Below are positions 4,921 to 49,203 of a DNA stretch of 64,000 bases, piece after piece. The translations under genes were made by a program, and so were the position numbers. The notes beneath the pieces are model-generated. The model ran no database searches, had not been told where the DNA came from, and worked only from the letters and a program-made list of their open reading frames with translations. Numbering within the stretch: the stretch's first letter is position 1; every line of letters starts with the position of its first letter. Source of the stretch: Opitutaceae bacterium (GTDB lineage: Bacteria > Verrucomicrobiota > Verrucomicrobiia > Opitutales > Opitutaceae); NCBI GenBank assembly GCA_016795545.1, contig JAEUGX010000054.1:1-64000 (forward strand), read 5' to 3'.

Positions 4921-4982
4921 ACCTTTCCGGCGCGCGGCGGGCTTTTCCCCGCCGGCCCGCGCCGTCAACCCCGCCGTCCCGC

Positions 4983-6692
4983 ATGGCCCTGTGCCGCATT
5001 CCCCCCGGTCGCGCCGCCCGCGCGTGCGGCCTCGCCCTGGTCCTCGGGGTGGCGGCGGGCGCCCGCGCCGCCGAGACCCTGTACAACGGCATCGTGCTGC
5101 CCGCCGAGTGGCCGCCGGCGTTGCGCGAGCTCGACCGGGAGGCGCCGGATCCGCCTCCCTACCTGGCGCGGCCGCCGGCGGTCATCCCGATCGACGTCGG
5201 CCGGCAGCTGTTCGTGGATGATTTCCTGGTGGAGTCGACGACCTTGGCGCGCCGCTTCCACCGGCCGACGCCGCACGCCGGCAATCCGGTGCTGCGTCCG
5301 GACCGGGCTTGGGAGAAGGCCGGCGCGCCGGACGCCAACGCCATGCCGTTCAGCGACGGCGTCTGGTACGACCCGCGCGAGCGGCGCTTCAAGATGTGGT
5401 ACCTGGCCACGGCCCCCGCCGGCACCGTGGCCGCCCAGCCGGAGGGCGGGCTGGTCACCGGCTACGCGACCTCGCGGGACGGCATCCGCTGGGAGAAACC
5501 GGCCCTCGACGTGGTGCCGGGCACCAACATCGTGCAGCCGCAGCCGCGGGATTCCGGGCTGGTGTGGCTGGACCGGGAGGCGGCGGATCCCGCGCGGCGC
5601 CACGTGATGCTGCGCGTCGCGCGCGCCCCGGAAAACAACTACTGGTCGGCGCAGGTGCATTTCTCCGCGGACGGCATCCACTGGTCGGACGCGGCCGCGT
5701 CGAGCGGCGGGTTGCCGTGGCTCGGCGACCGCTCGAGCCTGTTCTACAACCCGTTCCGCCGCGTCTGGGTCTACAGCCTGCGCAACTCGATCCGCCACGA
5801 CCCCGCGCTGGTGGGGGTGCGGGCCCGGCATTACCTCGAGCAGCGCGACGTGGCTGCGGGCCTCGCGGAGTGGGCGCGGCGGCCGTGGGTCGGCGCCGAC
5901 CGGCTCGACCCGCGCCACCCCCGGTTCCCCGGCTTCACGCCGCAGCTCTACAACCTCGACGCGGTGGCCTACGAGAGCCTGCTGCTCGGCCTGTTCTCCG
6001 TGCTCGAGGGCCCGGAGAACGAGGACAGCGCGCGGCTGAAAATCCACAAGCGCAACGAAATCCTCGTGGGCTACAGCCGGGACGGCTATCACTGGTCGCG
6101 GCCGGACCGGCGTCCGTTCATCGGCGTGGACGAGCGCGACGGGGCGTGGAACTGGGGCAACGTCCAGTCCGCCGGCGGCGGCTGCCTCGTCGTCGGCGAC
6201 CGGCTCTACTTCTACTACAGCGGCCGGCGTTGGGATTCCGGGCCGGGTCGCGGCGAAGGCAGCACCGGACTGGCCTTCCTGCGCCGCGACGGCTTCGCGT
6301 CGATGGATGCCGTGGCCGCCGACGGCGCGCTGACGACCCGCCCGGTCATGTTCGGCGGCGCCCACCTGTTCGTCAACGTCGCGCCGGCGGGCGGCGAGCT
6401 CCGCGTGGAGGTTCTCGGCCCCGACGGCCGGCCCCTGCCCGGATTCGCCGCCGCGGACTGCCGCCCGGTCCGGCGCGACGGCACCCGGGAGCCCGTCCGC
6501 TGGCGCGGCGCCCGCGACCTGTCCTCGCTGCGCGGCCAGCCGGTGCGCTTCCGCTTCCACCTGAGCGGGGGCGGGCTCTACGCGTTCTGGGTCAGTGCCG
6601 ACCGCGGCGGCGCGAGCGGCGGGTATGTCGCCGCCGGCGGCCCGGACCTGCCCGGCGCCCGCGACCTGCCCCCCGCGCGGCGCCGGCCCTGA
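4983..6692 (+). CDS. Secreted five-bladed beta-propeller protein, VDD type (putative glycoside hydrolase), copy 1
   Basis: Protein of 569 aa with a signal peptide ending near residue 30 (ALVLGVAAGARA). After it comes QLFVDDFLVE (Asp79, Asp80), then propeller-like strands with repeated motifs such as RFKMWYLAT and GYATSRDGIRWEKP that recall GH32/GH43-type five-bladed propellers. The final ~90 residues form a separate beta domain (GELRVEVLGPDGRPLPGF). The same architecture occurs in the genes at 33051 and 56126. A glycoside-hydrolase role is inferred from the fold-like repeats and from the catabolic neighbourhood; no family assignment is certain. ATG 4983 puts the signal peptide at the N-terminus. 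A LacI-type operator precedes it. Confidence 0.8.
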   Translation: MALCRIPPGRAARACGLALVLGVAAGARAAETLYNGIVLPAEWPPALRELDREAPDPPPYLARPPAVIPIDVGRQLFVDDFLVESTTLARRFHRPTPHAGNPVLRPDRAWEKAGAPDANAMPFSDGVWYDPRERRFKMWYLATAPAGTVAAQPEGGLVTGYATSRDGIRWEKPALDVVPGTNIVQPQPRDSGLVWLDREAADPARRHVMLRVARAPENNYWSAQVHFSADGIHWSDAAASSGGLPWLGDRSSLFYNPFRRVWVYSLRNSIRHDPALVGVRARHYLEQRDVAAGLAEWARRPWVGADRLDPRHPRFPGFTPQLYNLDAVAYESLLLGLFSVLEGPENEDSARLKIHKRNEILVGYSRDGYHWSRPDRRPFIGVDERDGAWNWGNVQSAGGGCLVVGDRLYFYYSGRRWDSGPGRGEGSTGLAFLRRDGFASMDAVAADGALTTRPVMFGGAHLFVNVAPAGGELRVEVLGPDGRPLPGFAAADCRPVRRDGTREPVRWRGARDLSSLRGQPVRFRFHLSGGGLYAFWVSADRGGASGGYVAAGGPDLPGARDLPPARRRP

Positions 6693-28893: not shown

Positions 28894-28930
28894 TACGCTA
28901 TTTGGCGTAACCAGTGCGGGTTTTTGGCGT
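28894..28930 (+). promoter_or_regulatory. Putative operator region of the small LuxR-type gene
   Basis: The stretch holds an inverted repeat TACGC/GCGTA (28894-28909, 6-bp loop) and two direct copies of TTTGGCGT (28901-28908 and 28923-28930) whose starts lie 22 bp apart, about two helical turns. It lies 48-84 bp upstream of the LuxR-type gene, compatible with autoregulation. No obvious -10/-35 pair was identified. Confidence 0.4.
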
Positions 28931-28977
28931 TTCATGCGTCTTAGTATGCAAACACCCACATACCTTCACCCATCCCC

Positions 28978-29328
28978 ATGAACGTTTGCGTTACTCCGCC
29001 CGCGTTGGCTCCCGCCCTGTCCGCCAAGGATCTGCATCGCCTGACCCCGGCCGAGCAGGTCGTGGCCCGGCACATCCTGCACGGTTTTACGAACAAGCAG
29101 ATAGCCGTTCAGCTTTCGAAGGCGCCTTCGACCGTGAAGGCGCAGGTGTCGTCGATTTTGCACCGTCTGGGCGTGCGGACGCGGGCGGAGCTGATCGCGG
29201 CCTTTATCGATCCTGCCTTGACGCTGTCCGGCCATGGCCGCGGCGAGTCGGGCGCCGCCGCCGGGGTCGATCCCCAGGAAGCCGGCGGTGTCATCTCGGC
29301 CGTGTCAGTCAGTCGAATGCAGCGGTGA
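28978..29328 (+). CDS. Small LuxR-type helix-turn-helix regulator
   Basis: Stand-alone DNA-binding protein of 116 aa. It consists of a short N-terminal tail, a LuxR/GerE-type helix-turn-helix (about 23-82: LTPAEQVVARHILHGFTNKQIAVQLSKAPSTVKAQVSSIL) and a ~30-residue C-terminal tail. There is no receiver or ligand-binding domain, so activity is probably set by expression level. Repeats upstream (28894-28930) may be its own binding sites. It lies 106 bp upstream of the PanD-like gene on the same strand and may regulate it (inference from position). Confidence 0.85.
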   Translation: MNVCVTPPALAPALSAKDLHRLTPAEQVVARHILHGFTNKQIAVQLSKAPSTVKAQVSSILHRLGVRTRAELIAAFIDPALTLSGHGRGESGAAAGVDPQEAGGVISAVSVSRMQR

Positions 29329-29434
29329 CGCGCTTGTTTGGTCACTTGGTGCACGATCGTAGTGAAAGTGTGTTGTGTTCGCCAGCCGCTGCCGGGTCGC
29401 ACCACCCGGCAGCGGCCACTTTCCTCGATTGCGG

Positions 29435-29893
29435 ATGGCCATGAATGAGCGCAACGTGCTCCGGGCCAAGCTGCACCCGGTGCGGCTGACTTCCACGGAA
29501 TCGGGGGAGATGGATTTTCCCGCGTCGATCCGGCTTTGTCCCCGCCTGTGCTGGGCGGCCGGGCTGGCCGAGCTCGAGCAGGTGGAGGTGTGCAATCTCA
29601 CCGGGCCGGCGCGCGTGTCCGCGACGGTCCTGCTGGGCGAGGAGGGCGAGGCCAGGCTGCCGGCTGGCATGAGCTTCGGTTTCGAGGCCGGCGACCAGGT
29701 CGCGATCATGGGGGTGACGCGGGTCCCGGTCCGGAGGCTGCCGCACCACGCGGCGCTGCTGGTCCTGGTGGATCCGGAGCGGAACGCGGCGACCGAGATC
29801 CGCCGCCAGGAGGCGCGCGAGCTGGCGCGCGAGCCGTCATTCGTGCCGACGCCGGCCCCGCGCCGGTTTCGGGAAGTCCGGCTGGTGCCTTGA
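29435..29893 (+). CDS. Divergent aspartate-decarboxylase (PanD)-like protein
   Basis: Protein of 152 aa that resembles aspartate 1-decarboxylase (about 126 aa) over its first ~100 residues: VLRAKLHPVRLTSTESGEMDFPASIRL aligns with the PanD start, and VEVCNLTGPARVSATV with the PanD core carrying the conserved Arg. The Lys and His near the N-terminus are kept. The self-cleavage site Y-E-G-S of PanD reads F-P-A-S here, so Ser is kept while Gly and Tyr are replaced, and the Thr and Asn used by PanD are not evident. Pyruvoyl formation is therefore doubtful and the function unknown. The C-terminal ~40 residues are extra. Its stop overlaps the start of the next small gene. ATG 29441 is an alternative start. 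Confidence 0.65.
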   Translation: MAMNERNVLRAKLHPVRLTSTESGEMDFPASIRLCPRLCWAAGLAELEQVEVCNLTGPARVSATVLLGEEGEARLPAGMSFGFEAGDQVAIMGVTRVPVRRLPHHAALLVLVDPERNAATEIRRQEARELAREPSFVPTPAPRRFREVRLVP

Positions 29894-30165
29894 AGTTCTC
29901 GCTGACCCTCACGTTGCTCGTGACGCCGCACCCGTCGGCGTTGCTCGACCTCGCGGTGGTGCTGCGGCGGTTCGCGCCGGCGCCGGAGTCGCTGCTCTGG
30001 TCGACGATCCCCGGCAGCGGCGAGGCCCGCGCCTGGCTCCTGGTGGAATTGTCCGCGGAAACGGCGGAACTGCTGTGCGTCCACCTGGGCCGCATCGCGG
30101 CGGTGCGCCGCGTCCGCTTGAGCCGGTCCGTCCCGCCGTCCGCCCCGGCGGCGGCGCGCGGCTAG
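29890..30165 (+). CDS. Small ACT-domain-like protein coupled to the PanD-like gene
   Basis: Protein of 91 aa reading LKFSLTLTLLVTPHPSALLD at the start (TTG, 29890), which overlaps the TGA of the PanD-like gene. The pattern of beta strand (FSLTLTLLV), helix (ALLDLAVVLRRF), strand, strand (ARAWLLVELSA), helix (ETAELLCVHLGRI) and strand (AVRRVRL) fits an ACT domain like that of small acetolactate-synthase subunits. It carries no catalytic motif. A regulatory subunit role for the PanD-like protein is plausible but inferred. The start codon is non-standard and rests on the overlap and the fold pattern. Confidence 0.5.
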   Translation: MKFSLTLTLLVTPHPSALLDLAVVLRRFAPAPESLLWSTIPGSGEARAWLLVELSAETAELLCVHLGRIAAVRRVRLSRSVPPSAPAAARG

Positions 30166-47329: not shown

Positions 47330-47450
47330 GGTGTCAGCGAGGTCTAGCGGGGCAAAACTAGCCCTCCAGAATTCGCCAATACCCTGCTGAAACTCGCCCA
47401 CTACTCGCTAACGCGAGTTGTTCGGATGCCGCTACGATTCAGTGCATCCC

Positions 47451-48482
47451 ATGAAAGCACGATTCACCCTGTTCCGCCGCGGCGAGACGTTTTACAGCCA
47501 AGACAGCGAAAGCGGCCAACAAACCAGCCTGCGGACGAAGAACGAGGAAGAGGCGCGCGCGCTCCTTCACTCCAAGAACGAAGCATTCCGGCAGCCGACA
47601 TTGAACCTTCAAATCGCCCGGACCTACCTTTCCGCAGCCGACCCGCAGGTCGCCAAACGCACCTGGCAGGTGGTCATGGATGAGATGGGCAAAACCAAAC
47701 GCGGCCCAACCAAGACCCGCCACGACCGCGGCATGCGGGACACGGCTTTCGACATCATCCGCAATCTACCGCTGCTTGAGACGCGGGCCGATCAATTCCT
47801 CCAAGTGCTTTCCGCCGGCACTGTGTCGACGAACATGTTTCTGGTCCGCCTGCACAACTTCGCCCTGCAGATGAACTGGCTCCCGTGGCCGGTGCTCGCG
47901 AAGAAGCGCTGGCCCCAGGTCACGTTCAACGAAAAGCGAGCCGTGACGTGGGCAGAACACCAAGCAATCCTCGCGCACGAGAACAACCCGGAGCGGCGCG
48001 CTTTCTTCGAATGCTGTTGGCATCTCGGCGGCGCCCAAACCGACATCGCAAGCCTGACCGCCGAGAGCATCGACTGGGAGAATCGCATCGTGAGCTTCCA
48101 TCGCCGCAAGACCGGCACTCCTTCGATTGTTCGGTTCGGGGATACGCTGGAGCGCGTGCTGCGGGAACTCCCCCGGTTCGGCTCGTTGTTTCCAAACCTC
48201 TTCGACCGGCCGGAAACCGACCGCTCCCGCATTTTCCGGCTCGCCTGCAAGCGGGCGAAGATTTCGGGGGTAACGCTTCACTCCTATCGTTACGCGTGGG
48301 CGGAGCGGGCCAAGACCTGTGGATATCCGGAGCGCTTCGCCCAAGAAGCGCTGGGCCACCGCAGCAAGGCGGTGCATCGCGCGTATGCGCGAAACGCTCA
48401 GGTCACGCTGCCGGCGCTGGAGGATTTTGAGAAAAAGTCGAAAGCGGCAGTTGCACCAGCCGTTGCGAACCCGGCTGCTTAA
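47451..48482 (+). CDS. Tyrosine-type site-specific recombinase (integrase)
   Basis: DNA recombinase of 343 aa. The catalytic domain carries His277-x-x-Arg280 (LHSYRYAW), LGHRS with His303, and the nucleophile Tyr312 (VHRAYAR), plus a lysine-containing beta hairpin RRKTGT. The first active-site Arg, normally in a TGLR-like motif, is not seen; the region reads WHLGGAQTDIASL with Gln196. The N-terminal ~150 residues should bind core DNA. It lies 179 bp from tRNA-Asn and on the same strand, the classic layout of an element integrated into a tRNA 3' end. Flanking DNA downstream has lower GC than the chromosome, which supports transfer. Confidence 0.88.
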   Translation: MKARFTLFRRGETFYSQDSESGQQTSLRTKNEEEARALLHSKNEAFRQPTLNLQIARTYLSAADPQVAKRTWQVVMDEMGKTKRGPTKTRHDRGMRDTAFDIIRNLPLLETRADQFLQVLSAGTVSTNMFLVRLHNFALQMNWLPWPVLAKKRWPQVTFNEKRAVTWAEHQAILAHENNPERRAFFECCWHLGGAQTDIASLTAESIDWENRIVSFHRRKTGTPSIVRFGDTLERVLRELPRFGSLFPNLFDRPETDRSRIFRLACKRAKISGVTLHSYRYAWAERAKTCGYPERFAQEALGHRSKAVHRAYARNAQVTLPALEDFEKKSKAAVAPAVANPAA

Positions 48483-48538
48483 CCACCGCCCGACATGGCC
48501 CGCTCTCGTCCATTCTCGCGCTTCGTTCGATTTGACAC

Positions 48539-48559
48539 GGGTGTGACAGTGTCACACCC
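48539..48559. promoter_or_regulatory. Perfect palindrome at the toxin-antitoxin promoter
   Basis: Two perfect 10-bp arms, GGGTGTGACA and TGTCACACCC, surround a central G. A TTGACA-like -35 sits at 48532-48537. This is the expected place for autoregulation by a toxin-antitoxin complex. The palindrome overlaps possible GTG start codons of the toxin at 48543 and 48549. Confidence 0.7.
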
Positions 48560-48917
48560 TTTTGGGCTGCTGACCTTCATCGAAACCACCACGTTCACGC
48601 GGTTGGTGCACGAGGTCGTCAGCGACGATGACTACGCCGAATTCCAACGCGAACTCGCACGCCACCCCGATCAGGGCGACCTGCTCGAGGGGTGCGGCGG
48701 CGTTCGCAAAGTCCGGATGGCGGCGCGTGGCAAAGGCAAGAGCGGCGGGGCACGGGTCATCTACCTGTATCTCCGCCACCGACAGAGAATCTATCTCCTC
48801 TATCTTTTTACGAAAGGCGACGCCGCGAACCTTTCCGCTGCCGGTAAGAAAACGATGCGCGAGCTAGCTCAACAAATCCGTCACGAGGTGCAGAATGAAG
48901 AAGGAAATCCAGTTTAA
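48543..48917 (+). CDS. HigB/RelE-type toxin of a type II toxin-antitoxin system
   Basis: Toxin-like protein of about 124 aa, probably a ribosome-dependent mRNA interferase. HigB2/RelE features are FIETTTFTRLVHEVVSDDDYAEFQRELARHPDQGDLLEGCGGVRKVRM, GGARVIYLY and RIYLLYLFTKGDAANLSAAGKK. The start is uncertain: GTG 48543 is annotated, but ATG 48495 is in frame and family proteins usually begin near the FIET motif, where only CTG (48570) exists. The gene overlaps its antitoxin by 23 bp, with the toxin first, as in higBA operons. A perfect palindrome lies at its 5' end. Confidence 0.8.
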   Translation: MTVSHPFGLLTFIETTTFTRLVHEVVSDDDYAEFQRELARHPDQGDLLEGCGGVRKVRMAARGKGKSGGARVIYLYLRHRQRIYLLYLFTKGDAANLSAAGKKTMRELAQQIRHEVQNEEGNPV

Positions 48918-49203
48918 CGAAGCGGAGCTGATTGGCGGCATGCGCGAAGCGTTGGAGCACGCGCGGGGCAAGCTGACGCTCAAGACCACGAAAGTCCCCC
49001 GCCGGACTCGCACTATGTCCCCGGCCGCGATCGCGCGAATTCGCCGCAAGCTCAAGGCCAGCACGCCCGTCTTCGCCGCTTATTTGAACGTCACTCCCGA
49101 TACTGTCCGGAGTTGGGAAAAGAATCGGCGGCAACCTTCTGGTGCGGCCCTACGGCTTCTACAGATCGCCGAAAAACGCCCGGAAATCCTGCTGGCCTCT
49201 TAA
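48895..49203 (+). CDS. HigA-type antitoxin with XRE helix-turn-helix
   Basis: Antitoxin of 102 aa. The N-terminal part is charged (KKEIQFNEAELIGGMREALEHARGKL) and the C-terminal half is an XRE-like DNA-binding domain (about 44-92: AIARIRRKLKASTPVFAAYLNVTPDTVRSWEKNRRQPSG). The reading frame overlaps the toxin by 23 bp, so the two are translated together. It probably binds the upstream palindrome and neutralises the toxin. The ATG at 48895 precedes the toxin stop. Confidence 0.85.
   Translation: MKKEIQFNEAELIGGMREALEHARGKLTLKTTKVPRRTRTMSPAAIARIRRKLKASTPVFAAYLNVTPDTVRSWEKNRRQPSGAALRLLQIAEKRPEILLAS

Follow-up and report, generated by a model that had tools for sequence, protein, structure and literature searches.

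Results

Organization of the Locus

The sequence analyzed is a stretch of 64,000 nucleotides (the window) from an Opitutaceae bacterium (Verrucomicrobiota), assembly GCA_016795545.1, contig JAEUGX010000054.1, positions 1-64,000 of the forward strand. The host genome (label G000) is 3.5 Mb and 90.7% complete, and the window lies within its contig C72. Positions 28894-30165 hold a cassette of three plus-strand genes encoding a LuxR-family HTH solo regulator (28978-29328), a PanD-like protein (29435-29893), and a stand-alone ACT-domain protein (29890-30165). Third-position GC of the three genes is 0.79, 0.90, and 0.97, and this codon-position composition supports coding. The PanD-like stop codon (29891-29893) overlaps a TTG start at 29890 by four bases (29890-29893), as a first-pass annotation of this DNA had it, and the ACT-like frame runs from there to 30165. 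The TTG start is supported by aligned homologues, which have ATG at the same point. Upstream of the cassette are genes for a sugar-acid-type MFS transporter and an enolase-superfamily enzyme, and downstream is a gene whose product has weak GH127-like similarity. Elsewhere in the window, genes for a phage-integrase-family recombinase, a RelE-type toxin, and an HTH antitoxin-like protein lie in succession at 47418-49203 and resemble a small mobile island.

LuxR Regulator and Cis Elements

The LuxR-family protein (116 aa) consists of a GerE HTH domain alone (PF00196, 42.9 bits), and no N-terminal autoinducer-binding domain was reported in it by the Pfam search. Its closest relative in the host genome belongs to a second cassette on contig C92 (47% identity). 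The direct repeats previously seen upstream of this gene are two plus-strand copies of TTTGGCGT at 28901-28930. They are unique in the window, none were expected from window shuffles, and they are followed by CGTCTTAGTA at about 28936. The repeat is a possible promoter or operator element.

A perfect 13-bp GC-rich hairpin (GCCGCTGCCGGGT-6-ACCCGGCAGCGGC) lies on the plus strand between the luxR and PanD-like genes (29385-29416); it is absent from the first-pass annotation. The intergenic RNA folds 3.6 standard deviations below shuffled sequences (z = -3.6). The C92 cassette has the same hairpin core at the same place after luxR, with a 14-bp stem and one paired change from T-A to C-G, and no fetched locus other than these two contains the core. 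An intrinsic terminator scan did not call the hairpin because its T tract is poor. It may be a terminator, an attenuator, or an operator.

Four cassettes from the genus labeled g16 (L052, L053, L057, and L058) carry TGTCATA-N26/27-CGTC upstream of LuxR at matching distances, and among the fetched loci the pattern otherwise recurs only in copies of these g16 places. The window has a degenerate match starting at 28903 that may have arisen by chance, so this motif was set aside as evidence for a cis element common to the cassettes.

Homology and Fold of the PanD-Like Protein

The open frame at 29435-29893 encodes a genuine, divergent relative of PanD (152 aa). It scores 44.1 bits against PF02261 (cut-off 25) and 25.3 bits against the PanD equivalog model TIGR00223 (cut-off 106), which places it in the homologous family and outside the equivalog. 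Its AlphaFold model (pLDDT 84.3) is the double-psi beta-barrel of PanD, the fold on which the first reading of this gene depended. The best Foldseek matches are PanD zymogen structures, including 1ppy, the S25A variant 1pqe, and the T57V variant 4azd, and target-normalized TM scores of the leading matches are 0.80-0.90. When the single protein was compared with solved sequences, TAL effectors scored best. They were rejected because their low E-values came only from summing over repeats, with single repeats contributing about 0-5 bits each.

This protein is the sole PF02261 match in the host genome. The genome has no canonical PanD match, and it contains two genes for pantoate ligase (PanC), at G000:C51:32394-33215 and G000:C107:19175-19918.

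Distribution of the PanD-Like Clade

A set of 252 genomes from the family yielded nine divergent PanD-like proteins, from five genera. With a profile built from those same nine proteins, they score 168-217 bits, and any canonical PanD in the 252 genomes scores at most 111. In a tree with 35 canonical PanD proteins, the nine are set apart by a branch supported at 100/98, and the tree contains long branches. All nine share a C-terminal extension that is absent from PanD, and there is also an insertion before the cleavage site. A pseudogene reading of the window copy was rejected on finding this nine-member clade.

No further members came from 373 sampled genomes of the order. A single-protein scan of 84,980 species genomes gave one relative, on a contig of G184, and a plasmid search with the PanD-like protein gave only weak matches, in Sinorhizobium. 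Neither the PanD-like nor the ACT protein had a match in PHROGs or PADLOC, and a phage or defense origin was rejected on this basis. Canonical PanD is also present in three of the nine clade genomes (G184, G260, and G103) and was not found in the other six, several of which are incomplete and which include the host genome of the window.

Loss of Self-Processing Residues

In the window copy, the region corresponding to the self-cleavage site is D27-F28-P29-A30-S31, and the F-P-A-S codons (29516-29527, plus strand) align where PanD has Y-E-G-S. S31 aligns with Ser25 of Escherichia coli PanD, K12 with Lys9, H14 with His11, and R60 with Arg54. The residues listed in the first-pass annotation (Ser, Lys, His, and Arg retained, F-P-A-S in place of Y-E-G-S) are therefore correct, but the list did not mention the losses: Thr57 is replaced by A63, Tyr58 by T64, Asn72 by P76, and Gly24 by A30, so that the Gly24-Ser25 cleavage site reads Ala-Ser. 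Thr57, Tyr58, and Asn72 are lost in all nine PanD-like proteins. Among the nine, the window protein is closest to PanD, and it is the exception to the loss of Ser25 in 8/9 of the clade; Lys9 is lost in 8/9 and His11 in 7/9. All residues compared are retained in 34/34 canonical PanD relatives. In PanD, Arg54 binds the substrate carboxylate. It is kept in just five of the nine, so a common aspartate-like ligand is doubtful and aspartate is no safe guess.

Thr57 of E. coli PanD is required for activation and pyruvoyl formation, and the T57V variant is not activated; Tyr22, Tyr58, and Asn72 are dispensable for activation (PMC3975893). Because Thr57 is lost throughout the clade, its members are most likely non-processed pseudoenzymes, predicted with high confidence from the alignment to be unprocessed barrels that lack a pyruvoyl group. 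A trace of self-cleavage is possible in the window copy, which keeps the equivalents of Ser25, Lys9, His11, and Arg54.

ACT-Domain Protein

The downstream protein (29890-30165, 91 aa) folds as an ACT domain according to its predicted structure, in keeping with its earlier description as ACT-like. The AlphaFold model (pLDDT 86.5) has the beta-alpha-beta-beta-alpha-beta order of a ferredoxin-like fold, and its top Foldseek match is IlvN (5ypp, E 1.2e-6). Other ferredoxin-like folds, such as S6 and NikR, also score, below IlvN. An ACT profile compared with solved proteins ranks the acetolactate synthase small subunits (IlvN) first, weakly (E 0.015). Among curated models the protein has no Pfam match and matches small-subunit models only weakly. 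The host genome encodes a paralogue of it elsewhere, and a second genome from the genus has a homologue. In known proteins, the ACT fold binds amino acids at a dimer interface.

Conservation of the Gene Association

Linkage was tested at nine PanD-like and 23 canonical panD loci, with models that left out the tested genome (the whole genus for g16). ACT-like genes are near 5/9 PanD-like genes and 0/23 canonical panD genes (Fisher 6e-4), and LuxR solos are near 6/9 and 0/23 (Fisher 9e-5); these values overstate independence because the four g16 loci amount for the most part to a single syntenic locus. At the genus level, ACT occurs in four of the five genera and LuxR in three. No ACT gene is near four of the nine PanD-like genes, and no LuxR gene is near three.

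The spacing of the pair varies. In G084, from a different genus, an ACT-like gene lies directly downstream of the PanD-like gene and was found by a profile built without it. In G103, the ACT-like gene is 1.3 kb downstream on the same strand, and at two g16 loci the distance exceeds 2 kb and the gene is on the opposite strand. The first-pass annotation had proposed looking for conserved pairs in related genomes and made its reading hinge on conservation of the downstream frame; the counts above and the G084 locus bear out both points. We are confident that the association of the PanD-like clade with ACT-like genes and LuxR solos is real and conserved across genera.

Related and Mosaic Cassettes

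The second cassette in the host genome (C92, L050, about 4971-6148) encodes, in the order of the window genes, a LuxR solo, a small protein termed X, and an ACT protein. A second PanD-like gene was suspected there and rejected; X comes from an unrelated family that has no Pfam match. The G260 locus has a canonical panD gene and a PanD-like gene about 1 kb apart, with X between them and LuxR after the PanD-like gene. The g16 loci encode LuxR, one or two small WWVY-motif proteins, LytTR, and then the PanD-like protein, and at two of them a relative of aspartate racemase precedes the PanD-like gene. In G106, from another genus (L162, G106:C111, 3009-9001), the order is LuxR, DUF1508, WWVY, ACT, racemase relative, and AraC. 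All three of the aspartate racemase-like proteins keep Cys82 and lose Cys197 of E. coli YgeA, which makes them a second enzyme family in these cassettes with a lost catalytic residue. Single-cysteine members of the aspartate racemase superfamily can still be active.

Several further observations on these loci were made, some of them by eye. After the G106 cassette come a small-protein gene and one resembling a serine recombinase gene; the cassette may be mobile. Contig G012:C1 (L163, 3216-5545) has a LuxR solo, then a HicA/HicB-like pair, an ACT-like protein, and X. The WWVY-motif proteins (NHHLW..NWWVYCAVN..CTKDKLRRSL) have no Pfam match and adjoin LuxR solos (L052 8668-9656, L053, L057, L058, and L162), and by eye they resemble an integrase arm-binding domain that has become detached. 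Many LuxR solos in this bacterial family (L166, L171, L172, L178, and others) adjoin genes that by eye encode TonB-receptor-like and thioredoxin-like proteins, some of these loci have M16-peptidase-like genes, and this setting differs from the cassette and is commoner. The recurrence of the genes in other combinations, including the second cassette in the host genome, had been missed in the first-pass annotation.

Discussion

The locus was first described as a regulated enzyme cassette, and the enzyme part of that description is not supported, given the loss of self-processing residues across the clade. The cassette is built from known parts; the linkage of PanD-like and ACT genes is real, whereas the enzyme claim is probably not. 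From sequence comparison, a regulatory or sensory role is plausible, with the chances about equal either way. The other recurring partners are either regulators (LytTR and AraC) or relatives of enzymes minus a catalytic residue, which we count in favor of a regulatory reading. Evenly balanced, too, is the broader proposal that the cassette is regulatory and mosaic, with an ACT domain and dismantled amino-acid enzymes as its ligand-binding or regulatory partners.

Under such a mechanism, the PanD-like protein would stay an unprocessed barrel without a pyruvoyl group and act as a ligand-binding or scaffold subunit. It would pair with the ACT protein, and the pair would inform the sensorless HTH-only LuxR protein of a small metabolite that is probably an amino acid or related carboxylate. 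LuxR could then control its own cassette and perhaps the neighboring sugar-acid and glycoside genes. That the PanD-like and ACT proteins bind each other directly has a little less than an even chance of being correct. More tentative, and rather doubtful as a whole, is the view that this is an undescribed Verrucomicrobiota cassette in which a PanD barrel, a racemase-like protein minus a catalytic Cys (in the relatives), and a stand-alone ACT protein would be separately encoded sensor subunits for a sensorless LuxR HTH.

Two other explanations give the PanD-like protein a part in pyruvoyl chemistry. As an active enzyme, it would self-cleave at Ala-Ser and decarboxylate an acid, be it aspartate or a different one, and the ACT protein would activate it or exert feedback control. 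The four retained equivalents (Ser25, Lys9, His11, and Arg54) in the window copy favor this, and so does its being the only PF02261 match in a genome with two PanC genes, where beta-alanine is presumably needed. Single mutations of Tyr22, Tyr58, or Asn72 also fail to abolish activation in E. coli (PMC3975893). However, the window copy has Ala for Thr57, and T57V is not activated in E. coli; it also has Ala for Gly24 and Pro for Asn72, the other eight clade members lack Ser25, and the TIGR00223 score is far under the cut-off. The lack of a canonical PanD is no argument either, as 118 of the 252 family genomes are without any PanD match and the host genome is just 90.7% complete. An active pyruvoyl enzyme is unlikely since the clade has lost its self-processing residues, the cleavage Ser included in 8/9, and we regard it as improbable. 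Equally hard to credit is a prozyme-like role, in which a dead PanD copy would form a complex with canonical PanD and thereby regulate it. This has a precedent in the dead AdoMetDC paralogue of trypanosomes, which activates its partner (PMC5201418), and three of the nine genomes do have canonical PanD, with the two genes about 1 kb apart in G260. Yet canonical PanD was not found in 6/9 genomes, though several are incomplete, and the cassette partners occur at 0/23 canonical panD loci.

It is also conceivable, though unlikely, that the cassette consists of a small regulator gene and relics that share no function and are carried along as a group by mobile or rearranging DNA. Mosaic gene order and content and the long tree branches would fit drifting cargo of this kind, as would the serine-recombinase-like gene just after the G106 cassette and the HicA/HicB-like pair in G012 (both by eye). 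Less easily accommodated are the open frames with strong codon-position bias, the clade-wide C-terminal extension, the ACT pairing in distant genera, and the hairpin common to the window and C92. A further idea is a decaying panD of one genome followed by a chance open frame, for which divergence from all canonical relatives and the lost catalytic residues could be cited. A nine-member clade in five genera largely refutes this idea, the ACT frame has a paralogue and homologues elsewhere, and both proteins give good models; we consider it most improbable.

The cassette resembles several known systems in part. The window protein shares with PanD (PF02261, TIGR00223) its fold, homology above the Pfam cut-off, and the Ser, Lys, His, and Arg positions, but it has lost the Thr57, Tyr58, Asn72, and Gly24 equivalents, belongs to a separate clade, falls far below the TIGR00223 cut-off, and has a different gene neighborhood. 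PanM/PanZ, an acetyl-CoA sensor with the GNAT fold, promotes cleavage of the PanD zymogen (PMC4537548). It offers a parallel for a PanD-family protein with a dedicated partner, although here an ACT domain is the neighbor and the barrel probably cannot be cleaved. IlvN/IlvM is the closest solved sequence and fold to the ACT protein and is likewise a small stand-alone ACT subunit adjoining another gene; the similarity is weak, however, no acetolactate synthase is alongside, and the partner gene is PanD-like. The nearest conceptual precedent is the trypanosome AdoMetDC prozyme, a dead, unprocessed pyruvoyl-enzyme paralogue kept by selection (PMC5201418), but its fold is unrelated and it regulates an active paralogue, whereas no such paralogue turned up in six of the nine genomes. 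Many solo regulators are HTH-only LuxR (GerE) proteins with PF00196 alone. The present ones have no receiver or ligand domain and differ in their gene neighbors, which encode PanD-like, ACT, or X proteins that could take on the sensing. The open-access literature yielded no non-catalytic PanD relatives and no link of the PanD fold or a PanD paralogue to ACT or LuxR genes.

If the sensory reading is true, the cassette would represent a simple sensor design, in which an amino-acid enzyme fold minus its chemistry is joined to an HTH-only regulator encoded next door. A PF02261 match alone is an unsafe sign of the beta-alanine route; this Opitutaceae genome would be annotated as having PanD, which it probably lacks.
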